This document shows positions 12,666 to 23,697 of a stretch of DNA of 44,764 bases, one piece after another. The position numbers and the translations under genes are program-made. Origin of the DNA: Bacteroidota bacterium. Its GTDB lineage: Bacteria > Bacteroidota > Ignavibacteria > Ignavibacteriales > SURF-24. The stretch covers positions 1-44,764 of the forward strand of contig JAUZPB010000025.1 in the NCBI GenBank assembly GCA_030706145.1, read 5' to 3'. Positions within the stretch are counted from its first letter, which is position 1; each line of letters opens with the position of its first letter. The notes beneath the pieces were generated by a model that saw nothing but the letters and a program-made list of their open reading frames with translations, had not been told where the DNA came from and searched no databases.

Positions 12666-15600
12666 CTAATTATGAACCCCAAGCTTAACTTGACCAGTTC
12701 TTTTTAAGATTCCCCAACCAACCAAAGTACCTTTTATAGCAGATAAGATCGATTTAAGGAGCACCCAATACATAAGCTGCCTATAGATAAGGCGTTGAGG
12801 GAAAAGAAGGAAGAGACGTTTTAGGCCTTCTTTTTCAAAACTAAATGCAATCAGGGCTGAAATCAGATCAAGTATCAAGAATAAAAGATAATAACCAATA
12901 ATCTGCTGCCAGTATCCACCAAGTATTCCAAGTACCATCATTAGCTCAGCCAGAGGCGAAAACAAGGGAAGCGCAAAATGGAACAACAAAACGTTTGGCA
13001 GAGCTATAAGTCCAAGAGCCTTATAGTTATGATTAAACAATGTATCCTTATGTTTCCACAAGCTTTGCATAATACCAAAGGACCAGCGGAAGCGCTGTCT
13101 TAAAAACATCTTTAAGGTCTCAGGAGCTTCGGTATAAGCAATAGCTTTTTCATTATACCGGACAGTATAGCCTTGTCTTAAGAGTCTAATTGTAAGATCA
13201 CAGTCTTCTGCCAAAGTATCATTAGTAAAGCCACCAGACTTTAGAATTGCACTTTTTCTAAAAGCGCCAATTGCACCTGGGACGACTGTTATTGCATTAA
13301 GAAGGTCAAAGGCACGCCTATCAAAGTTCTGGCTAGTAATGTATTCAATGGACTGCCATTTGGTAATTATATTTCTTTCATTTCCGACCTTTACGTTACC
13401 AGCCACAGCAGCAATTGATTCATTTTCACTCAATGTTTCAACCAATTTTGTGATAGCATCCGGCATAAGCTGTGTATCTGCATCAATACAGATGATGAAT
13501 TCACATTCGGAGTGTTCAATTCCATAGTTTAGTGCTGTAGCTTTTCCTCCATTTGGTTTTGTAAGCACACATACTCTTTGATCATCAGCAAAAGCTTCTG
13601 AGACAACTTTATATGTATTATCCTTTGAGCCGTCATCGACAAAAATAATCTTAAAATCCGGATAATTTCCTCTTAAGAGGTTATTCAGATTTTTGACAAT
13701 ATGAATTTCCTCGTTATAAGCAGGAACGATAATACTAACCGGAGGCAAAGAGCTATTATTCTGTGAAGAAACAGAAATCTTTCTTTTCTTTTGTATATAA
13801 GCAAGACTTCCAACAAATAAAAGGCGAAGTAGTGCAAGAATGATCCCAAGGAAAAACAGTGTAAAAATAAAGCGGCTTAGCCAGAAAATTGCCTCGGCAA
13901 TAGACCAGTTTACATTTGAGAGGAAAAGATCACTTCTATCCTTAAGTTTTGGCATAATATCGTCTCTGGACTTACCAAGCAGGCCAGAAACAGTGCCAAA
14001 AGTATACCCTTTATCCTTAAAATACTTTATTATTTCTGGAAGAGCCTTTACAGTTTGAGAGCGATCACCGCCGGCATCATGCAAAAGGAGAATACTACCT
14101 AAATTTTCTTCCCTTTTAATACGCCTAATTATAGTATCAGCACTTACCCCCTCCTGCCAGTCAAGAGGATCAATAGAGGCACCTATAGTATAATAATTTT
14201 CATTACGTGCCTCAATTATTGGCAGTATTTCTTGTATATGTTCAGGTTCTGTATCAGCATCATATGGAGGGCGGAAAAGGACGGTAGAGTGTCCAGTGAT
14301 ACTCTCAATCAAACGGCGAGTAGAATTCAGTTCAATCTTTGTCCTTTCATTTCCAGTTATTGCGAGGTTTGGATGCAAGAAGGAATGGTTTCCGATTTCA
14401 TGTCCTTCATTATAAATTCTCTTCAATAAAGTCAGGTTATTTTCAGCATTAATGCCGAGGACGAAAAACGTAGCCGGGACATGCTCTTTTTTTAAGATAT
14501 CGAGTATCTGCGGAGTATATCTATAATCTGGGCCATCATCAAAGGTAAAAACGATAACCTTCTTATTTGCATTTCCGAATTTCCGTATAAGATAAGAAGA
14601 AGGAAGCTGGAGATAATTTTCCTCAGTAATTATTTTTTCTTTATTATCATATTCCAGATCTATTTTACCTGTTTGTGGTGTAGAAACGATATCGAGTATT
14701 TCACCTTCCCCTTCAAAATCGAGACTAGTAGAATGATCGATTGTTTTAAGATCCGACATTTGAAAGGGAGTTCTGTTTAGCCCTTCAGCAGAAAGGTCCT
14801 TATTATAAAAGCGCCACAGGCGTGGATCTTCTCCACCTAAGCGCCAGAGTGCCACACCAGCACATCCAAAATCATTTGCAGTTCTTATCAGGTTAAAACA
14901 TGTAGCAGCATCAGTAAACCAAACCTGATGAGAGTGGTCATTATCATCATAGTAAGAATACTGGAGATTATAATTATTATTGTCGAAATCAATTTTACTA
15001 TCAGACTCCTTAGCTCTAACAAGTGATTCCTGATATGAAATATCCTCAGCAGAGCTACCTTTGGGCCAGTCATAACCATAGGCCGGTATTCCAAGAACAA
15101 GCTTTTCAGAGGGAACCTGATTTACAGCTTTAATAAGATGGTACTCAACCCATTTAATATCGGCAATTGGTCCGGGATCGCTATCGGCATAATGAAGGTC
15201 ATAGGCCATAATCATAAGATAGTTATTATATTTCTGCAGTACTGCATAATCATAGGTAGAATCATCAACCGGTACATCCTGAGATACTATATATCCGTGC
15301 GTACTTAGAGCTTCGAATAGTTCTTTCTGAAACTCCTGTAGCTGAGTTTTATATTTTTCCGAAATACTTTCGATGTCAATATTTATTCCACTAAAAGAAT
15401 ATTTCTTTAATGCATTTAAAATGCTTTTAATAAATCTTGTTCTTTTTGGTTTTGAAGAGATAATTCTTTCTGCGCTTTGTGGATTCCACTTATTGTTATA
15501 ATAATTTGAAACCATGGGAAGTATCTTGATTTTATGGTTCTGCATAAATGAAAATGCGCGAAAATCGATATCAGTATTTATGGTATCGGCATTGTCCTGA

Positions 15601-16031
15601 AAGAAGAACCATTCAGGCATAACCATATTCAGTTTTTCAATATTATCTCTTAAAGAGTAAAAAGACTGTGCATCCCAGTTTACGTAGAAACCCGCTCTTA
15701 TCTGATATCCATTAAGAGGCATTGCATGCCGTTTGGGGTGGTGAAGATTTGGATTAAGAACCATTTTTAGTAGTTCTTTGCGGGACTTGTTAAACAAATT
15801 GTTTTGTTTTGTTGTAATTGTAGTAATTCTTTCGGGATTAAGGACAGTCTTATAAATCTCATTTTCTGCCTTCAGCTTTGGCAGTGAAGTACTACTCGAA
15901 CTAAGTATATCAATTACAACAGAAACACCTGCAAGAATTAAGATAACTATGAAAAATCTTATTGTTCCCTTAAATGTACGCCATCTGCGCCCAGATGCGC
16001 TTAAAAATACTGGTTTATGTTGGTCTGTCAT
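12666..16031 (-). CDS. Three-domain envelope enzyme: GH18-like hydrolase, NodB polysaccharide deacetylase, GT2 synthase
   Basis: A 1121-residue fusion. After one N-terminal membrane helix (about 22-44) comes a GH18-like domain (about 110-415; SGINIDIES has Asp219 and catalytic-type Glu221; YGYDW, MAYDLHY). Next is a NodB/CE4 deacetylase (about 490-690; TFDDGPD with Asp498-Asp499, metal His549 and His553 in HSFLHP, FRPPYDAD, LLLHDAGGD). A second helix pair (about 717-742) leads to a processive GT2 domain (about 763-990; VPAYNEE, VDDGS, DAD at 850-852, EDCD at 942-945, QRFRW at 979-983) and C-terminal membrane helices. The set suggests synthesis of a beta-linked GlcNAc-type polymer across the inner membrane with deacetylation and trimming outside. 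Product is inferred. Confidence 0.9.
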   Translation of the reverse strand: MTDQHKPVFLSASGRRWRTFKGTIRFFIVILILAGVSVVIDILSSSSTSLPKLKAENEIYKTVLNPERITTITTKQNNLFNKSRKELLKMVLNPNLHHPKRHAMPLNGYQIRAGFYVNWDAQSFYSLRDNIEKLNMVMPEWFFFQDNADTINTDIDFRAFSFMQNHKIKILPMVSNYYNNKWNPQSAERIISSKPKRTRFIKSILNALKKYSFSGINIDIESISEKYKTQLQEFQKELFEALSTHGYIVSQDVPVDDSTYDYAVLQKYNNYLMIMAYDLHYADSDPGPIADIKWVEYHLIKAVNQVPSEKLVLGIPAYGYDWPKGSSAEDISYQESLVRAKESDSKIDFDNNNYNLQYSYYDDNDHSHQVWFTDAATCFNLIRTANDFGCAGVALWRLGGEDPRLWRFYNKDLSAEGLNRTPFQMSDLKTIDHSTSLDFEGEGEILDIVSTPQTGKIDLEYDNKEKIITEENYLQLPSSYLIRKFGNANKKVIVFTFDDGPDYRYTPQILDILKKEHVPATFFVLGINAENNLTLLKRIYNEGHEIGNHSFLHPNLAITGNERTKIELNSTRRLIESITGHSTVLFRPPYDADTEPEHIQEILPIIEARNENYYTIGASIDPLDWQEGVSADTIIRRIKREENLGSILLLHDAGGDRSQTVKALPEIIKYFKDKGYTFGTVSGLLGKSRDDIMPKLKDRSDLFLSNVNWSIAEAIFWLSRFIFTLFFLGIILALLRLLFVGSLAYIQKKRKISVSSQNNSSLPPVSIIVPAYNEEIHIVKNLNNLLRGNYPDFKIIFVDDGSKDNTYKVVSEAFADDQRVCVLTKPNGGKATALNYGIEHSECEFIICIDADTQLMPDAITKLVETLSENESIAAVAGNVKVGNERNIITKWQSIEYITSQNFDRRAFDLLNAITVVPGAIGAFRKSAILKSGGFTNDTLAEDCDLTIRLLRQGYTVRYNEKAIAYTEAPETLKMFLRQRFRWSFGIMQSLWKHKDTLFNHNYKALGLIALPNVLLFHFALPLFSPLAELMMVLGILGGYWQQIIGYYLLFLILDLISALIAFSFEKEGLKRLFLLFPQRLIYRQLMYWVLLKSILSAIKGTLVGWGILKRTGQVKLGVHN

Positions 16032-16364: not shown

Positions 16365-18224
16365 TTATTTTATCTCAAAGATTGCACCTTCAAGTGCTCC
16401 AACTTCAAGCTGTAATTGTGGATCTATAGAGATCTCTTTTCCACTTTTCAGATCCTTAATAGTTTTTGCATTACCAAGCTGGTCTTCAAGAGTAGAGATC
16501 TTGAAGGATTGTTTTTCATTTTTATTATTCAGAATTACTAAAACTTTCTGATCCTCAGAGGCCCTCATATATGCATAGAGTTCATTAAGAGGAGGGAAAT
16601 GAACGAGCTTACCTTCTGAGAAAGCCCTCTCATATTGTTTTCTTATTTGAAGGAGCTGATGAGTAAAGTCATATACCTCATTTTCCTTTTTTGTTCTTCC
16701 CTGCTTAGTAAATGCATTGTGATCGCTATTAGGGAAACCGCCAGGAAACTCTGCTCTAATTGTACCATCGCTATTTCCACCAACAATACCTATCTCAGTT
16801 CCATAATAGACCTGAGGAATTCCCCGGGTCGTTAGAAGAAGAGTAAGAGCAAGTTTAAACCTATCGTAGTCATTCTTTGTAACATTCAGTATTCTCTTCA
16901 TATCATGGTTATCCATGAAAGTGAGCAAGTTATAAGGATTCTGGAATAAGTAATCTTTTGAAAGTGCATCATATACTCTTCGAATACCTGTTGTAGAATC
17001 CTTAAAAACATCTCTTGCGGCATCACATAGAGAAAAGTCAGTTACTACAGGCAGATGAGTATCAAAGTCCTTATGAAGGACACTTCCACTCTGGAAAGGA
17101 GCAAGGAAGGCAGGATCACCCATCCAGACCTCACCGACAATATTAAAATGGGGATACTCATCAAGTATAATTTTAGCCCAATCAGAAAGGAATTTTTGAT
17201 CTGAGTAAGGATATGTGTCCTCTCTTAGACCATCAAGTCCTGAGGACTCAATCCACCATAGTGTATTCTGTATCAAGTATTTCGCAAGAAATGGGTTTTG
17301 CTGATTTAAATCTGGCATTTCATCTACAAACCAGCCATGGTTGTTAAAGTCTTTTGCAGAGACGTCAGCATGGATATCATAGATTGTCGAGTTAAAGTGG
17401 CGAGTAATGTGATGATCCTTAACAGAACCATTGAGCCAACTTTTGAAAGGAAGGTTTTCAATCCAGGAGTGGAATATGCCAATATGATTGTTTACATGAT
17501 CCAAAATAACCTTTAAGCCTTTCTGGTGGGAAAGATCAACAAGTTTCATATAAAGGTCGTTAGTGCCATAGCGGGGATCTATTTTATATAAATCGGTAAC
17601 AGCGTAGCCATGATAGCTTACCTTAGTATTATTTTCAACTAAAGGATTAATCCAGATCGATGTAAATCCCAGATCTTTAATATAATCGAGGTGATCGATT
17701 ATTCCCTGGATATCTCCACCGTGTCTTCCCATTTCAGAGGAAGGATTATAATGGTCATTCATTCCGGGAAAATCGTTATTTGATTTGTCACCATCAGCAA
17801 AGCGGTCTGGAGAGATCATGTAAATTACATCTTTTGGAGAAAAACCCTGCTGGCAGCCCTGATTTTTTCTTTTATTTATTTGGTATTTGTATTCAACCTT
17901 TTCCTTCCCTTTTGTTAATTGAAGTATGTACTCACCAGGTTTAATTTTCGGCGAAACCTCTACATCAATAAATGAATAGGAAGGACTTTCGGCATCATTA
18001 ACCTTGAGGATCTTAAGCAAAGGAGAATTGAATTTTGCCGAAACACCTTTGAGGTTTTCACCATAGACCATAAGTTGAATTTTATTATATTTCATTCCGG
18101 CCCACCAGTTTGGAGGTTCAACCTTACTAATGTTAACTGATTGGGCCAAAGCAAATTGAAAGGCAAATAAAAGCAGAAGCAGAAGCAGTTTAGATAGTTT
18201 TCCGAAATTCATGAGTATCCCCAT
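16365..18224 (-). CDS. Secreted alpha-amylase-family (GH13) glycoside hydrolase, neopullulanase/cyclomaltodextrinase-like
   Basis: A 619-residue GH13 enzyme. A long Leu-rich signal peptide (LLLLLLLFAFQFALAQ) precedes an N-terminal Ig-like domain (about 30-117) typical of Bacteroidota cyclomaltodextrinase/neopullulanase proteins, then the TIM barrel with conserved region I (KVILDHVNNH), nucleophile Asp336 (DGLREDTYPY), acid/base Glu365 (VGEVW) and Asp438 (FMDNHD), then a C-terminal beta domain. It hydrolyses alpha-1,4/1,6 glucans, probably in the periplasm. Two in-frame starts: ATG 18224 and ATG 18212; the latter has GGGGAT in front and gives a tidier signal peptide. It lies downstream of the ccm terminator. 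Confidence 0.92.
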   Translation of the reverse strand: MGILMNFGKLSKLLLLLLLFAFQFALAQSVNISKVEPPNWWAGMKYNKIQLMVYGENLKGVSAKFNSPLLKILKVNDAESPSYSFIDVEVSPKIKPGEYILQLTKGKEKVEYKYQINKRKNQGCQQGFSPKDVIYMISPDRFADGDKSNNDFPGMNDHYNPSSEMGRHGGDIQGIIDHLDYIKDLGFTSIWINPLVENNTKVSYHGYAVTDLYKIDPRYGTNDLYMKLVDLSHQKGLKVILDHVNNHIGIFHSWIENLPFKSWLNGSVKDHHITRHFNSTIYDIHADVSAKDFNNHGWFVDEMPDLNQQNPFLAKYLIQNTLWWIESSGLDGLREDTYPYSDQKFLSDWAKIILDEYPHFNIVGEVWMGDPAFLAPFQSGSVLHKDFDTHLPVVTDFSLCDAARDVFKDSTTGIRRVYDALSKDYLFQNPYNLLTFMDNHDMKRILNVTKNDYDRFKLALTLLLTTRGIPQVYYGTEIGIVGGNSDGTIRAEFPGGFPNSDHNAFTKQGRTKKENEVYDFTHQLLQIRKQYERAFSEGKLVHFPPLNELYAYMRASEDQKVLVILNNKNEKQSFKISTLEDQLGNAKTIKDLKSGKEISIDPQLQLEVGALEGAIFEIK

Positions 18225-18289: not shown

Positions 18290-18339
18290 GATAAAAAAAT
18301 CAAATGCCATATCCTTTGGTATTTTAAGATATGGCATTT
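18290..18339 (-). terminator. Intrinsic terminator after ccmF
   Basis: Perfect 12-bp stem AAATGCCATATC (18302-18313) / GATATGGCATTT (18328-18339), 14-nt loop; on the minus strand it is followed by GATTTTTTTA. It lies 25 bp past the ccmF stop and ends the ccm transcript. Confidence 0.88.
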
Positions 18340-18363
18340 AATAAAGGCTAAATTTATGCTGTT

Positions 18364-20787
18364 TTACTGCTGCCGAGATTCCTTAGAGCGCCTTAGGACC
18401 GAAACAAGGAATCCCATAACCATCAAAAGAACGCCTGTCCATACCAGGCTTATTAGTGGCTTGACGCTTGCCTCAATTGATAAGACTTCCTTTGGCTGTA
18501 CAGTGGTCTGAGATTCACTAGCACCATTCAATTTGGAAATCACAAGGCTAACTTTTCCAGAGGCCTCAAGGTTGGCCATTTGAATTCTAAGATTTGCATC
18601 CTGCAATTCAACAGGGACAAATTCCCTTTCTCCTTTTACTGCACGAAGTAGTGGTTCAACCTCTTTTGTCTTTCCATTATAAGCAACACTAAGCTTAGCG
18701 CCAATCTGGAAATCTCCGCCAGACATCATACTACTCATTGCTTCTTTTGGGAAGTTAAAGCTAGCAAATGTAATCTTTGTCCCTTCAAAAGTTGTAGATT
18801 CACCCTTATTCAAAGAAACTTCATTTCCTCCGGTATTTTGTTTTTGGTTGCCATCATCATATCCCATAGGAGAGACATAGAAGTCCCTTGTCAGTTCGGA
18901 GAGCATATCGGGTTCTCTCATAAGGCTGTTGTTATATTGGCTAAAAAACATTACCGGAGCCACAATAGAGGAATTGTTACCCTTTTTTACTTCAATATTA
19001 AAATGGTACTTTTTCCCATTATCAAAAGGCTGATAGCCTTTGAAAGTAAGTATATAACCAAAGGCTTCTTTTGGCTGATTAAGTGGAAGTTCAATTTGTT
19101 GTTGATGGCTAAAGCCTGCAGAGCCCACAACACCAAGAAGAAATACTGCAATACCAACGTGGGCAACATAAGCTCCAAGCATAATTTTATTTCCGCGAAT
19201 TATCTTATAGGCTATTTCAGCATTTGTTGAAAGTGCAAAGGCAGAGCTAAAAGCAAGAAGTATAAGCATTACATCGCGGAGGCCCGTTATAGCCAGTAAA
19301 ATAGCTGTCAGTACAACTGCTGCAATAACCGAAGGAAGAGACTTTTTAGCTATATCTTTTCCATCGGAAGACTTCCATTTCATAAGCAAACTAAGGCCAT
19401 TTAGCAGTCCGATAATAATTCCAATAGGAAGATTCATCTGATTATAGAATTTTGTTTCGACTGATTGCTTGAATATTGGGGCCGATGTTCCTACAAGTAC
19501 AATAATTGCCGAAGCAATAAGAGCAACTGCACCTGTAAAGAGAGCGAGTTCACGGTTAAGAAGGCTTTTATATGGATCTACCGGAGCAGAGTCAAGATAT
19601 TTCCATCTATAGGCAAGCATACCAAAGCCAAGAAAAGTAAAGCTTAAGATTAGTATTATTAAGAACAGATAAACAGAATACCCCGGGTCAGTAAACGAGT
19701 GCACCGATGCATCGCCAAGGATACCGCTTCTTGTAAGAAACGTACTATATAGCACCAATACATAAGTCATAATAGATAGTATCAAATTTGTTTTTGCAAA
19801 TTCACCAATAGTAGAAGAATTATCCTTTCTAGATAGACTCTTTTTCTGAACAAGGAGCGTATGGATTGAGGCCACACCGACAAGCCAAGGAACCAGGCTT
19901 GAATTTTCCACAGGATCCCATCCCCAATATCCGCCCCATCCAAGAACTCCATAAGCCCAATAACCACCGAGCATGATTGCAAGTCCCAGAATCATAGCAC
20001 AGGAAAGGACCCATGGGAAAGCATGTTTTATCCATTCTTTGTATTCATTTTTCATAAGAGCAGCAATTGCAAATGAAAATGGGACAGTTGAAAGAGCAAA
20101 GCCGGTAAAGAGCATTGGAGGATGAATCTGCATCCAGAAGTTCTGAAGAAGCGGATTTAATCCCTTTCCCTGAATAATAAAGTCATTTATTGCTATTCCA
20201 CCGCTTTGGAGCACAGAATAAAGTTCGGAGCTCATTTTAACGAAGCTTTGTCCTGAATTACCATCGCTGAATAAAAAGTTCTGTATAAATGGGGCACTTA
20301 AAAATGCAGGATTTATATTAGCTGTAGCAAGGAACGTAGGATCAGACCAGATATAAGCGAAAGGATTTTTCAGCATTGGAGAAATCATTACCAGCAGGAA
20401 TGAGGCAGCGAGAGAAAAGACAGACATTACCCTAGATTCCAGGTCACCTCTTTTTGAACAATATTGCTGAAGAACGATTCCAATGATCACGGTCATAATA
20501 GTCCATAGGAAAAAGCTTCCTTCCTGCCCAGCATAAAACGTTGAGATTGTCAGTCCAGTAGCAAGACCGCTACCGCTATAATCATAGACATATTTATATT
20601 GATATTGATGAGTTAAGATGGCATGTAAAAAAAGTGTGGCAGCAACGATTGTTAGCACCGCCATTGCATGATAGCTCCATCTAGCAAGATTTAACGTATT
20701 GTTTGCCCCTTTAAATGTAAAGAAGTACATAACAACAGATGTAATACCAGCTATAAGAGCCAAGGTAAGTAAAATACTGCCGACCAT
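18364..20787 (-). CDS. ccmF: Cytochrome c heme lyase subunit CcmF
   Basis: An 807-residue polytopic protein with the CcmF/NrfE signature: the tryptophan-rich WWD motif GWGGYWGWDPVENSSLVPW (residues about 283-301), IHPPMLFTGFALS just before it (about 221-233), and many transmembrane helices. It holds heme from CcmE and joins it to apocytochrome CxxCH motifs in the periplasm. It is longer than the roughly 650-residue proteobacterial form, with extra sequence at about 140-215 and a long C-terminal periplasmic domain before the last helix. Start ATG 20787 follows AAAGGAAA. It is 157 bp after ccmE, with a hairpin between them. Confidence 0.95.
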   Translation of the reverse strand: MVGSILLTLALIAGITSVVMYFFTFKGANNTLNLARWSYHAMAVLTIVAATLFLHAILTHQYQYKYVYDYSGSGLATGLTISTFYAGQEGSFFLWTIMTVIIGIVLQQYCSKRGDLESRVMSVFSLAASFLLVMISPMLKNPFAYIWSDPTFLATANINPAFLSAPFIQNFLFSDGNSGQSFVKMSSELYSVLQSGGIAINDFIIQGKGLNPLLQNFWMQIHPPMLFTGFALSTVPFSFAIAALMKNEYKEWIKHAFPWVLSCAMILGLAIMLGGYWAYGVLGWGGYWGWDPVENSSLVPWLVGVASIHTLLVQKKSLSRKDNSSTIGEFAKTNLILSIMTYVLVLYSTFLTRSGILGDASVHSFTDPGYSVYLFLIILILSFTFLGFGMLAYRWKYLDSAPVDPYKSLLNRELALFTGAVALIASAIIVLVGTSAPIFKQSVETKFYNQMNLPIGIIIGLLNGLSLLMKWKSSDGKDIAKKSLPSVIAAVVLTAILLAITGLRDVMLILLAFSSAFALSTNAEIAYKIIRGNKIMLGAYVAHVGIAVFLLGVVGSAGFSHQQQIELPLNQPKEAFGYILTFKGYQPFDNGKKYHFNIEVKKGNNSSIVAPVMFFSQYNNSLMREPDMLSELTRDFYVSPMGYDDGNQKQNTGGNEVSLNKGESTTFEGTKITFASFNFPKEAMSSMMSGGDFQIGAKLSVAYNGKTKEVEPLLRAVKGEREFVPVELQDANLRIQMANLEASGKVSLVISKLNGASESQTTVQPKEVLSIEASVKPLISLVWTGVLLMVMGFLVSVLRRSKESRQQ

Positions 20788-20911
20788 GAATAATATTTCC
20801 TTTATTGTTATCTGGTAATTTTGAATTTAATTAAAGAGTAAAAAAAGAGAAAATGCATTTTTATTTCTCTAAATAAGACATGGCGATCTTCATAATACCC
20901 CTCTATAATTC

Positions 20912-20936
20912 AAAAGCCGGGAAATACCGGCTTTTT
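20912..20936 (-). terminator. Attenuator-like hairpin between ccmE and ccmF
   Basis: Stem AAAGCCGG (20913-20920) / CCGGCTTT (20927-20934) with a 6-nt loop. On the minus strand the stem ends CCGGCTTTTG, giving a short U-run. It lies 9 bp past the ccmE stop and could reduce ccmF expression relative to ccmA-E. Confidence 0.6.
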
Positions 20937-20944
20937 CCAAAGAC

Positions 20945-21334
20945 TTACATGCCCGAACTAATTTTAGGCTTACCTTCGTATTTCGAAGGGCATTTTGTAA
21001 GGACGTCAGTAGCATGGAAATACCCGTCTTTATATTTTCCTGTAACTACGACGCTTTGCGCGGCCTCAAAGTTATTGGGCATTGTGCCTGCGTAAACGAC
21101 TTTCATTTCTCTTCCTTCGGCATCCCTCATATAGAAGCTAAAGGTCTTTTCTATGGGGTTAATTTCATAATTTTTTTCTCTAACCCAGCTACCTGTGGCC
21201 TTAAAAGTTTTACTTTTAGCCTGAATAGTAGCAAAATTAGCTTCATACTGAATATTTGTCTGAGTAAACAAATAAATCATAAGTCCCAGAAATGTGACAA
21301 TTATAGCGCCACCAATTAAGTATTTATTTTTCAT
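20945..21334 (-). CDS. ccmE: Heme chaperone CcmE, CxxxY variant
   Basis: A 129-residue periplasmic heme chaperone with one N-terminal membrane anchor (about 5-24) and the CcmE beta-barrel (FKATGSWV, YAGTMPNNFEAAQSVVVTGKY). Classical CcmE binds heme through His in an HxxxY motif; here the motif is LTKCPSKY, with Cys115 and Tyr119. This CxxxY form is known from archaea and deltaproteobacteria with System I*, which lacks CcmH. Its ATG overlaps the ccmD stop codon by one base (TAATG), showing translational coupling. Assignment is firm; the Cys ligand is read directly from the sequence. Confidence 0.95.
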   Translation of the reverse strand: MKNKYLIGGAIIVTFLGLMIYLFTQTNIQYEANFATIQAKSKTFKATGSWVREKNYEINPIEKTFSFYMRDAEGREMKVVYAGTMPNNFEAAQSVVVTGKYKDGYFHATDVLTKCPSKYEGKPKISSGM

Positions 21335-21486
21335 TATACCTTACTCCCTTTGATTTCCTTTTCAATTTGTTTAATTCTTTTATCGAGGTTGTTTAAGAAC
21401 AAGAAAATGCCGGCCCAGACAACCAGAACAATTAAAAGGACAATGTAGATGGAATTACTTTCGAGAAATTTCATTAAGCCGTTCAA
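21334..21486 (-). CDS. ccmD: CcmD-like small membrane protein
   Basis: A 50-codon frame too short for ordinary gene calls. From ATG 21474 it encodes 46 residues: one membrane helix (IYIVLLIVLVVWAGIFLFL) followed by a charged amphipathic tail (NNLDKRIKQIEKEIKG), which is the normal CcmD form. CcmD helps release holo-CcmE from the CcmABC complex. The TTG at 21486 is preferred as start because AAGAGGTGAGG lies at proper distance (GAGG, then six bases), whereas ATG 21474 is 13 or more bases away. The stop overlaps the ccmE start. Position between ccmC and ccmE supports the call. Confidence 0.85.
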   Translation of the reverse strand: MNGLMKFLESNSIYIVLLIVLVVWAGIFLFLNNLDKRIKQIEKEIKGSKV

Positions 21487-21554
21487 ACCTCACCTCTTGA
21501 TCGTTTTGTAAAAGAATAAAATGCAGGGGGGAAATTTCACAAAAGAAATCTCTC

Positions 21555-21588
21555 CGCATTAAACCAGTTTTCGCGTTAAACCAGTTTT
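21555..21588. repeat. 17-bp tandem duplication at the ccmC 3' end
   Basis: CGCATTAAACCAGTTTT (21555-21571) is followed directly by CGCGTTAAACCAGTTTT (21572-21588), 16 of 17 bases the same. The right copy encodes the last codons and stop of ccmC (KLV-stop), so the stop and preceding codons are repeated just downstream. Confidence 0.95.
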
Positions 21589-22274
21589 TTTGTAAGCTTA
21601 TCTTTATAAATAATTGACTTATAGTTCAATCTCCACATCCAGAAAAAAAGAATTGTAAAAGCTGCAAGAGACAAAAAGAAAACAAGCAGCATATTAGAAT
21701 TCATCTTAAAATTAACTACCGGACCGGCATTAGTATCATTAGCCGAGCCAGGGTGCAGTCCTGTCATAATTCTAGGCATAATAAAGATAAAAAATGGGAC
21801 TGTCACAAAAGCAATAATTGAATATACAGCCGAGAGCGAAGCTTTTTTTTCCTCGACCTCAATAGCCGAACGGAGTGCAAAAAACGCTCCATAGATAAGC
21901 AGGAGCATAAAAATGCTTGTCTCACGCGGATCCCAGTTCCAAAAAGATCCCCAATTAAACTTTGCCCAGATAGAACCTGTAACAGTTGCCAGGATGCAGA
22001 AGATGATCCCAATTTGGGCAGCAGCATAAGCCTTTGCATCATCATCGAGGTCCTTTTTTCGCAGATACTGTACACTGTAAATAGTTGATGTAAGAAATGC
22101 TATTACAGTCAACCAGGAAGTAGGTACATGAAAAAATATAATCTTTGCTTTTTCTTCCAGACCGGGAATAATGGGAAACTGGTACCAGAGAGCCGGATGC
22201 TCAACTATAGGAAAAGAAATCCCAGCGATTATCACAAAAGCCATAAGAAGGAAAAGTATTGATTTCCAGACCAT
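21576..22274 (-). CDS. ccmC: Heme exporter/handling protein CcmC
   Basis: A 232-residue protein with about six membrane helices. It has the WWD motif WAKFNWGSFWNWDPRETS (103-120) and the two flanking heme-ligand histidines expected of CcmC: His49 (FFHVPTSW) and His174 (GLHPGS). CcmC presents heme to CcmE at the periplasmic face. Gene order ccmB-ccmC-ccmD-ccmE is the classical one; it begins 34 bp after ccmB. The 3' end is duplicated in a 17-bp tandem repeat. Confidence 0.96.
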   Translation of the reverse strand: MVWKSILFLLMAFVIIAGISFPIVEHPALWYQFPIIPGLEEKAKIIFFHVPTSWLTVIAFLTSTIYSVQYLRKKDLDDDAKAYAAAQIGIIFCILATVTGSIWAKFNWGSFWNWDPRETSIFMLLLIYGAFFALRSAIEVEEKKASLSAVYSIIAFVTVPFFIFIMPRIMTGLHPGSANDTNAGPVVNFKMNSNMLLVFFLSLAAFTILFFWMWRLNYKSIIYKDKLTKKLV

Positions 22275-22308
22275 ATTAGATTCACCTGTTTGTTAATCGT
22301 AAAATATA

Positions 22309-22968
22309 CTAATCTTTCCAAATAAAATCGAACAGCAAAAAAGATGCAGTAAGTATAACAACATTATAGCAGATCAGCACCGTTAGTTCGACATAAGATT
22401 CTCCGATACTTGCCCCATCAATAGAAAACTTTGTCAGTTCGAGCAATGTCAGTATCAGAGGAAGTAATATTGGAAATGAAAGTACCGGATATAAAGTTCC
22501 CTTTGATCCGGCTTTTGCAATAATTGCAGCAATAATAGTTGAAGATGAAGCAATTCCAATATTACCCAGTATGAAAGCCACAATAAAAAGTGACAGATTT
22601 TTAAGGACAAAAGAATCAAATATAAGTGAATAAAGCAAGGCAATTACGATGTTCATCGCAAAGACTAAAATCAGATTAAAAAGCAGTTTTCCGGTAAAGA
22701 CCGTATTTGGGGAGGCAATTAGGTGAAGTGTCATTACAGTGCCACGTTCTTCCTCAGAGACAAAGGCTCTTGACAAACCAGACATAGCCGAAAAGAATAT
22801 TACAACCCACAAAAGCCCACCGGTTAAGTATTCTGAAATCTTTTCACTGCCAATAGAAAATAGGATCACACTTATTGTAACCAAAATGAACATTACTAGA
22901 GCATTTATTGCATAACGTGTTCTAAGTTCAGACTGAATATCTTTTTTAAACAGTGAATAAGCTTTCAT
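22309..22968 (-). CDS. ccmB: Heme ABC exporter permease CcmB
   Basis: About 219 residues with six hydrophobic segments and the CcmB landmarks: an N-terminal KKDIQSELR segment, LLWVVIFFSAMSGLSRAFVSEEERGTV (the highly conserved acidic-arginine region after helix two, quoted in part), and HLIASPNTVFTGKLLFN. It pairs with CcmA as the membrane part of the ABC complex that uses ATP to release holo-CcmE. A TTG at 22980 extends the frame by four codons; ATG 22968 is preferred because it begins at the conserved N-terminus. Neither has a strong Shine-Dalgarno. Confidence 0.94.
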   Translation of the reverse strand: MKAYSLFKKDIQSELRTRYAINALVMFILVTISVILFSIGSEKISEYLTGGLLWVVIFFSAMSGLSRAFVSEEERGTVMTLHLIASPNTVFTGKLLFNLILVFAMNIVIALLYSLIFDSFVLKNLSLFIVAFILGNIGIASSSTIIAAIIAKAGSKGTLYPVLSFPILLPLILTLLELTKFSIDGASIGESYVELTVLICYNVVILTASFLLFDFIWKD

Positions 22969-23043
22969 GTCGATTTTCAAAGATTTTGATTTATAAATGT
23001 TTTGGGAAAATTATTTTAATATAGCACAAGTCCAAAGGACTTT

Positions 23044-23697
23044 CTAAAGTCCTTCTTCAGAGTGTATCATCTTGTATTTCTCAAGCTGAATGACATCCCG
23101 GCAAAGCGAAAGATCACTCTCCTCATTAGAAGCAATAATTACAATAGTAGAGGCAGCTTCAGACTGTATTATCTTATAGACTGTCTCTTTTCCAGAACTA
23201 TCCAGATTTGAAGTTGGCTCATCGAGTATAAGAACTTTGGGAGAGTGCATAAGGGCAAAAATATACTTAAGTCTTTGCTTCATTCCAGAAGAATAACCTT
23301 TAACCTCATCATTGCGCCTGTCGTAAAGCAAGAATTCATTCAGAAGGTAATCAACCTTTTCCTTGTTAAAAGGTACCTCTCTGATTTTGCAGACATGCAT
23401 AAGGTTTTCCTGGGCAGAAAATTCATCATACAGTACGAGATATGGAGCAACAAAGCCAATATGCTCATGCAGCTTATCAGGAGTAATTTTCTTTTCGCCA
23501 AGTAAATGCGTAACACTACCCTTAGAAGCCCCTATAATTCCTGCAAGAATCTTGACCAATGTAGATTTACCAGAGCCATTTTGCCCTGAAATTCCCCAAA
23601 TGCCATTTTGATTAAAACAGAAAGTAATATCCTTAAAGATTAGTCTTCGTCCGTAGATTTTCGTCAGTTTTTCAACTTTTACCTGATAATTACTCAT
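23044..23697 (-). CDS. ccmA: Heme ABC exporter ATP-binding subunit CcmA
   Basis: A 217-residue ABC ATPase: Walker A GQNGSGKST (38-46), signature YSSGMKQRL, Walker B VLILDEPTSNLD and a switch-region IIIASNEESD where the usual His is replaced, as often in CcmA-like ATPases. It heads the ccm genes; its start overlaps the end of the upstream T9SS metalloprotease gene by 8 bp, so translation is likely coupled. Taken alone it could be any small export ATPase, but position directly before ccmB-E makes ccmA the call. Confidence 0.93.
   Translation of the reverse strand: MSNYQVKVEKLTKIYGRRLIFKDITFCFNQNGIWGISGQNGSGKSTLVKILAGIIGASKGSVTHLLGEKKITPDKLHEHIGFVAPYLVLYDEFSAQENLMHVCKIREVPFNKEKVDYLLNEFLLYDRRNDEVKGYSSGMKQRLKYIFALMHSPKVLILDEPTSNLDSSGKETVYKIIQSEAASTIVIIASNEESDLSLCRDVIQLEKYKMIHSEEGL

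Follow-up and report, generated by a model that had tools for sequence, protein, structure and literature searches.

Our analysis concerned a stretch of 44,764 nucleotides (hereafter the window; contig JAUZPB010000025.1 of assembly GCA_030706145.1) from a Bacteroidota bacterium of the class Ignavibacteria. Its minus strand carries a complete set of cytochrome c maturation (Ccm) genes in the order ccmA-B-C-D-E-F. We are highly confident that this locus is a complete operon of the System I* type and that it serves the general pathway of such systems. The genes, together with the motif that marks CcmE, are arranged as follows.

23044-23697, minus strand: ccmA, heme exporter ATPase, 217 amino acids (aa); ABC_tran 87 bits and operon position
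22309-22980, minus strand: ccmB, heme exporter permease, 223 aa, TTG start; PF03379 (CcmB) 63.7 bits, over the cut-off
21576-22274, minus strand: ccmC, WWD-family heme-handling protein, 232 aa; PF01578 92.7 bits, over the cut-off, and TIGR01191 (ccmC) 106.9 bits
21334-21474, minus strand: ccmD, 46 aa, single transmembrane (TM) segment; read from the sequence, PF20077 (CcmD_alt) 24 bits, E = 4e-5, over the cut-off
20945-21334, minus strand: ccmE, heme chaperone with a CPSKY motif, 129 aa; PF03100 64.5 bits, over the cut-off
20978-20992, minus strand: codons of the CPSKY motif, Cys115 to Tyr119 of CcmE, with the Cys115 codon at 20990-20992; from the sequence
18364-20787, minus strand: ccmF, cytochrome c synthase, long form, 807 aa; CcmF_C 92 bits and Cytochrom_C_asm 88 bits, over the cut-off

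Since the genes match their own families in the correct order, chance is of no concern. CcmA scored 89.6 bits against TIGR01189 (ccmA), under that family's cut-off; it is an ABC ATPase with mixed best family matches, so its identity rests on position. The ccmD gene was missing from the list of open reading frames (ORFs), and its stop overlaps the start of ccmE (TAATG). An initial annotation had given both the gene order, which the coordinates and Pfam families bore out, and the 807 residues of CcmF, which were confirmed. Neither ccmG nor ccmH was found 3′ of ccmF at the locus.

The CcmE of the window reads LTKCPSKYEG, so that Cys115-PSK-Tyr119 stands in place of the HxxxY of canonical System I, exactly as first annotated, and Cys115 shares its alignment position with His130 of E. 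coli. A CcmE tree was built without the motif columns, on only 85 columns. In it, five HxxxY proteins, all from Pseudomonadota, formed one side of a branch (Shimodaira-Hasegawa-like approximate likelihood ratio test, SH-aLRT, 95), and the window CcmE was placed not among them but among Cys-type proteins of the same order. Heme binding by Cys-CcmE and maturation in the absence of CcmH have both been demonstrated experimentally for Desulfovibrio and Methanosarcina (PMC3601427, PMC9084895). Three Ignavibacteria-class loci (L065 at about 7716, L070 at about 7989, and L178) carry, beside a CPSKY ccmE, a second CcmE-like gene for an oligonucleotide-binding (OB) fold without the cysteine motif. A CcmE-annotated protein of a Halorussus plasmid (L236, 10923-11294) reads SVRAHEGSD at the motif, which is neither HxxxY nor CxxxY.

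The window's genome assembly (5.34 Mb, 345 contigs, 98.5% complete) was then considered as a whole. The window CcmE is its sole CcmE, and CcmH (PF03918), which canonical System I possesses and which System I* lacks by its original description, gave no match at E<=1. ResB/CcsB, the mark of System II, matched nothing but a part of CcmF, and that below the threshold (E=0.06); this weak match was not used as proof. Thus, neither a CcmH nor a second, HxxxY-type CcmE was found elsewhere, and the proposed System I* assignment held. PF01578 matched three proteins, namely CcmC, CcmF and one encoded directly before hemA; the third is HemX-like because it adjoins hemA, and it was rejected as a CcsA on that ground. 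The suggested count of heme-binding motifs gave 432 matches to the CXXCH DNA pattern against 147 for a reversed control, and direct reading of contigs revealed ORFs with 5, 6 and 6 CXXCH motifs (multiheme c-type cytochromes). With CXXCH proteins present and no other synthase seen, the genome has a substrate and a single visible synthase; the ccm operon is very probably its only route to c-type cytochromes. Candidate reductants are seven Redoxin-family (PF08534) proteins and a 601-aa DsbD; a CcdA-like protein is also encoded. The claim that CcmG is lacking therefore stands for the locus but cannot be extended to the genome, since redoxins and DsbD are encoded elsewhere.

CcmF has the core of a cytochrome c synthase. 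Its WWD motif, WGGYWGWDPVEN, lies at residues 284-295, and H222, H309, H363 and H543 align with H173, H261, H303 and H491 of E. coli, so that all four heme ligands are present, two as periplasmic (P-His) and two as transmembrane histidines (TM-His). The AlphaFold2 (AF2) model (predicted local distance difference test, pLDDT, 90.5; predicted template modelling score, pTM, 0.86) has the CcmF fold, matching Thermus thermophilus CcmF (6ZMQ) with Z 36.1 over 563 residues and a root-mean-square deviation of 2.6. In a tree of the CcmF core the window protein fell within Ignavibacteriota, where it shares a fully supported group with a named Ignavibacteriales genome. The quick CcmF tree has long branches (Halorussus with Desulfovibrio), and those joins are not trusted. 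Two regions of the protein are enlarged, a loop at aa 141-221 and the C-terminal periplasmic region, and the latter was resolved into two domains.

20125-20367, minus strand: CcmF loop, aa 141-221, periplasmic, before P-His1, 81 aa, order-specific; from alignment
18856-19116, minus strand: CcmF D1, the beta-domain of all CcmFs, aa 558-644; from alignment and AF2 strands 561-644
18472-18855, minus strand: CcmF D2, a second periplasmic beta-domain, aa about 645-772; from hhalign, fold match and the exclusion between D2 and CcmH

The D2-bearing enlargement is the bigger of the two and far more widely shared. The region between TM-His2 and the last TM segment is 120-124 aa long in all the unfused CcmFs examined from systems with CcmH, both in E. 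coli, Ruegeria, Klebsiella, Methylobacterium, Cupriavidus and Psychrobacter and in systems that combine CPSKY with CcmH (Metabacillus/Cytobacillus plasmids, Acidobacteriota, Eiseniibacteriota and Myxococcota). It measures 237 aa in the window CcmF, and about 215-390 aa across the window, Ignavibacteriota, Bacteroidota, Balneolota, Calditrichota, Armatimonadota, Negativicutes, Spirochaetota and Thermoanaerobaculia. When a profile for D2 was trained on sequences of Bacteroidota, Ignavibacteriota and Balneolota, it recognized D2 in Calditrichota (8e-26), Negativicutes (3e-14), Armatimonadota (1e-11), Thermoanaerobaculia (8e-11) and Spirochaetota (1e-7), with no convincing match in short CcmFs. 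Two large Saprospiraceae-type CcmFs (L157, L198) seem to bear an extra D2 copy, and one Calditrichota genome (G426) has three D2-bearing CcmF genes, which suggests dedicated synthases for different cytochromes.

The AF2 model places two beta-domains of the same strand order in succession, D1 at 561-644 and D2 at 655-752. By hhalign, D2 matched the D1 of short CcmFs (P 94%, E 1.8e-7) and that of long CcmFs (P 81%). Judged by these profiles and the model, D2 is a tandem copy of D1 that arose by duplication. Folded alone (pLDDT 85.8), D2 aligned best to residues 511-609 of 6ZMQ (Z 11.2, 94 residues) and next to residues 101-305 of the System II synthase CcsBA (Z 10.2 over 88 residues, and 8.4). 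Foldseek by itself returned only lipocalin-like matches without significance, with CcsBA at rank 34, and it was re-alignment that put 6ZMQ and CcsBA at the top. The corresponding beta-region of CcsB is the "beta cap", for which a role in guarding the active site has been proposed (PMC10663686). We rejected D2 as a degenerate CcmH because it is all-beta, has no cysteine and matches the beta-domains of CcmF and CcsBA. Without a cysteine it cannot take over the thiol chemistry of CcmH and could at most provide substrate docking or capping.

The distribution of D2 was compared with that of CcmH in 76 rows for which CcmH had been called from the whole genome or from the locus. D2 occurred without CcmH in 56 rows and CcmH without D2 in 14; six rows had neither, and none had both. 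Eleven CPSKY genomes with CcmH carry D2 nowhere. In the sole case of apparent D2 loss (L063), another CcmF of the same genome bears D2. In the CcmF core tree, which was built without D2, the D2 rows form one clade (SH-aLRT 97). The exclusion is thus essentially one event, and an independent-pairs test had no power (2 pairs). Since Coriobacteriia branch below the D2 clade, the tree suggests that the loss of CcmH preceded the origin of D2.

The locus resembles several known systems. The Desulfovibrio System I* (PMC3601427; Allen 2006, Goddard 2010) shares the CPSKY cysteine at the His130 position, the CcmABCDEF core and the lack of CcmH. However, its CcmF is short (642 aa with a beta-region of 121 aa in L181, against 807 aa with D2 in the window), and D2 was found in none of three Desulfovibrionia genomes. 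The initial annotation's view that the window holds the same variant is therefore right as to the Cys-type CcmE and the missing CcmH and too simple as to CcmF. Expressed in E. coli, the Desulfovibrio system has been demonstrated to function without CcmG/H (PMC3601427). The archaeal Ccm system of Methanosarcina acetivorans (Gupta 2022, PMC9084895) likewise has a CxxxY CcmE and no CcmH/I, but it lacks CcmD and its CcmF is split into two proteins, while the window has CcmD and one long CcmF chain. E. coli ccmABCDEFGH shares the ccmABCDEF order, the CcmF fold and the four heme-ligand histidines; it differs by an HDENY CcmE, CcmG, CcmH and a 647-aa CcmF with one beta-domain. CcsBA (Helicobacter hepaticus 7S9Y/7S9Z; PMC10663686) is also CcmH-free with a WWD core, and D2 has the fold of its CcsB periplasmic beta-region. 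In contrast to the window, it has no CcmABCDE, and its CcsB is a separate domain or protein for which the window genome has no ResB/CcsB gene.

The cysteine variant of CcmE was also followed through the phylum and beyond. CcmE is present in 253 of 395 genomes of the phylum, and all CcmEs read, from 85 genomes in 44 families, have the cysteine (CPSKY, with one CPSRY). CcmH matches at E<=0.001 were obtained in 11 of the 395, all weak. Nine same-order genomes are among those with weak matches. The same-order matches read turned out to be zinc-ribbon proteins that have CcmH-like cores and are encoded amid metal-transport genes, and for this reason they were rejected as true CcmH. We thus found no genuine CcmH in the 395 genomes, as judged from these sequences. 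Such proteins occur at L037 (1195-2019) and L040 (1081-2022), probably also in L034, L035, L038 and L039, and contain FVCGCGSCGEESLEVCDC...KYG; their genes adjoin DUF2318-like, heavy-metal-binding and ABC permease genes. They probably represent CcmH-like domains outside cytochrome maturation.

A KCPSKY codon scan over 84,980 species, whose figures are lower bounds, gave at least 120 stretches, of which at least 117 are true CcmEs, from at least 18 named phyla. Among the matches listed were Bacteroidota (59), Ignavibacteriota (8), Acidobacteriota (7), Myxococcota (7), Bacillota (6) and others including two archaeal ones, so the trait is by no means confined to the window lineage. A 2011 review named mainly delta-proteobacteria, Chloroflexi and Firmicutes for the cysteine variant (PMC3601427), and we found no literature on CcmE/CcmH of Bacteroidota among the papers searched, few of which came from subscription journals. 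The documented range of the variant is widened by its presence in every CcmE read in the phylum. Bacillaceae plasmids of Metabacillus and Cytobacillus (L233, L240) combine a CPSKY CcmE and a short CcmF with a CcmH in which the usual LRCxxCQ motif is missing. Fusions of CcmF with a CcmH domain, in ORFs of 776-1037 aa, occur together with a CPSKY CcmE at L224 (428-3133), L215 (3399-6509) and L222 (868-3195), from Acidobacteriota, a Pseudomonadota-labelled metagenome-assembled genome (MAG) and Myxococcota. A MAG bin labelled Comamonas (L193) has a CPSKY CcmE and a D2-bearing CcmF without CcmH, which probably lie on a contaminating Bacteroidota contig.

How heme is attached without CcmH in Cys-type Ccm systems has been asked since 2006, and the 2011 review reported that bioinformatics had found no feature compensating for the missing CcmH (PMC3601427). 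In the predicted E. coli complex, the CXXC domain of CcmH lies beside the heme site of CcmF (PMC8975832). The gene content, the CcmE motif, the absences, the conserved heme ligands, the D2 duplication and the exclusion of D2 from CcmH genomes were read directly, and from them we infer every biochemical step of the pathway. CcmF would hold its TM-heme by H309 and H543 and would attach heme to CXXCH motifs reduced via DsbD and a redoxin, the reductant coming from DsbD and one or more redoxin-family proteins. D2 would be the obvious candidate for the space that the CXXC domain of CcmH takes in E. coli. With this in mind, we tentatively propose that D2 supplies the apocytochrome docking or active-site capping given by CcmH elsewhere. 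The D2-type CcmF would then be a distinct solo synthase in which duplication of the beta cap created a periplasmic chamber like that of CcsBA, in which the apocytochrome docks and the heme site is shielded, making CcmH dispensable; this fuller scheme we also regard as possible rather than probable.

Several points weigh against this reading of the locus and of D2. The exclusion rests on about one evolutionary gain, so that causality is unproven, and lineages without both D2 and CcmH exist (Desulfovibrio-type and Coriobacteriia genomes). A third of Cys-CcmE bacteria keep CcmH according to Stevens et al. (PMC3601427), so its absence is no defining mark. In addition, the assembly is fragmented and slightly incomplete, so the genome may still have a CcmH that is missing from it or very divergent. 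The first two points, along with the apparent loss of CcmH before D2 arose, speak for a plain System I* in which one CcmF clade has inherited D2 as an ornament (for stability, or as a lipid or envelope adaptation), unrelated to the loss of CcmH, whose functions would be unneeded or performed by TlpA-like proteins. The association of D2 with the absence of CcmH amounts to only 2 changes on the tree, with no independent statistical weight, and ccmABCEF are enough in Methanosarcina (PMC9084895). Nevertheless, CcmH occurs in 0 of 56 D2 rows and 14 of 20 D2-less rows, and D2 persists in no fewer than eight phylum-level groups and has been lost genome-wide in no genome checked. We give the ornament explanation somewhat less than an even chance.

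It is quite unlikely that an unrecognized CcmH-like protein, such as the zinc-ribbon proteins with two CcmH-like cores in same-order genomes, performs the task of CcmH. The nine weak matches in that order would favor it, but the window genome has none at E<=1, the genes read have metal-transport rather than ccm neighbors, and most CcmH-less relatives lack such proteins. The initial annotation's suggestion that the extra sequence at about 140-215 of CcmF replaces CcmH is highly improbable and largely refuted as a general explanation, for although AF2 models the loop as ordered (most blocks at pLDDT 88-93) and it runs straight into P-His1 near the active site, it measures 81 aa in all rows of the window's order alone, against 27-58 aa elsewhere (28-58 aa in other CcmH-less Ignavibacteriota and Bacteroidota, and 27 aa, as in E. 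coli-type CcmF, in Negativicutes and Thermoanaerobaculia). The loop was accordingly rejected as a general CcmH substitute, and an order-specific role is possible.

If the proposal for D2 is true, the domain is the compensatory feature for missing CcmH, serving much of Bacteroidota, Ignavibacteriota, Negativicutes, Armatimonadota and others. Being cysteine-free and never found with CcmH in the genomes checked, D2 turns the question of CcmH-less heme attachment into a domain-deletion experiment. With respect to the papers that could be searched, which included few subscription journals, D2, the duplication that gave rise to it and its absence from genomes with CcmH are new; the locus itself is a known System I*.

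Two RNA structures accompany the operon.

About 18296-18341, minus strand: intrinsic terminator 3′ of ccmF; 16-bp hairpin followed by a T7 run, folding free energy (dG) -18.5 kcal/mol, z -4.7
20903-20935, minus strand: hairpin between ccmE and ccmF, 9-bp stem and weak T-run; RNA fold -15.5 kcal/mol, z -1.8

The hairpin between ccmE and ccmF, with its weak folding statistics, is a possible attenuator of ccmF expression. The terminator, a strong hairpin with a T-run, is followed by an amylase-like gene (16365-18224), in agreement with the initial annotation. Further along, 12666-16031 encodes a 1121-aa protein that by eye combines a domain like glycoside hydrolase family 18 (GH18) with a polysaccharide deacetylase and a family 2 glycosyltransferase.

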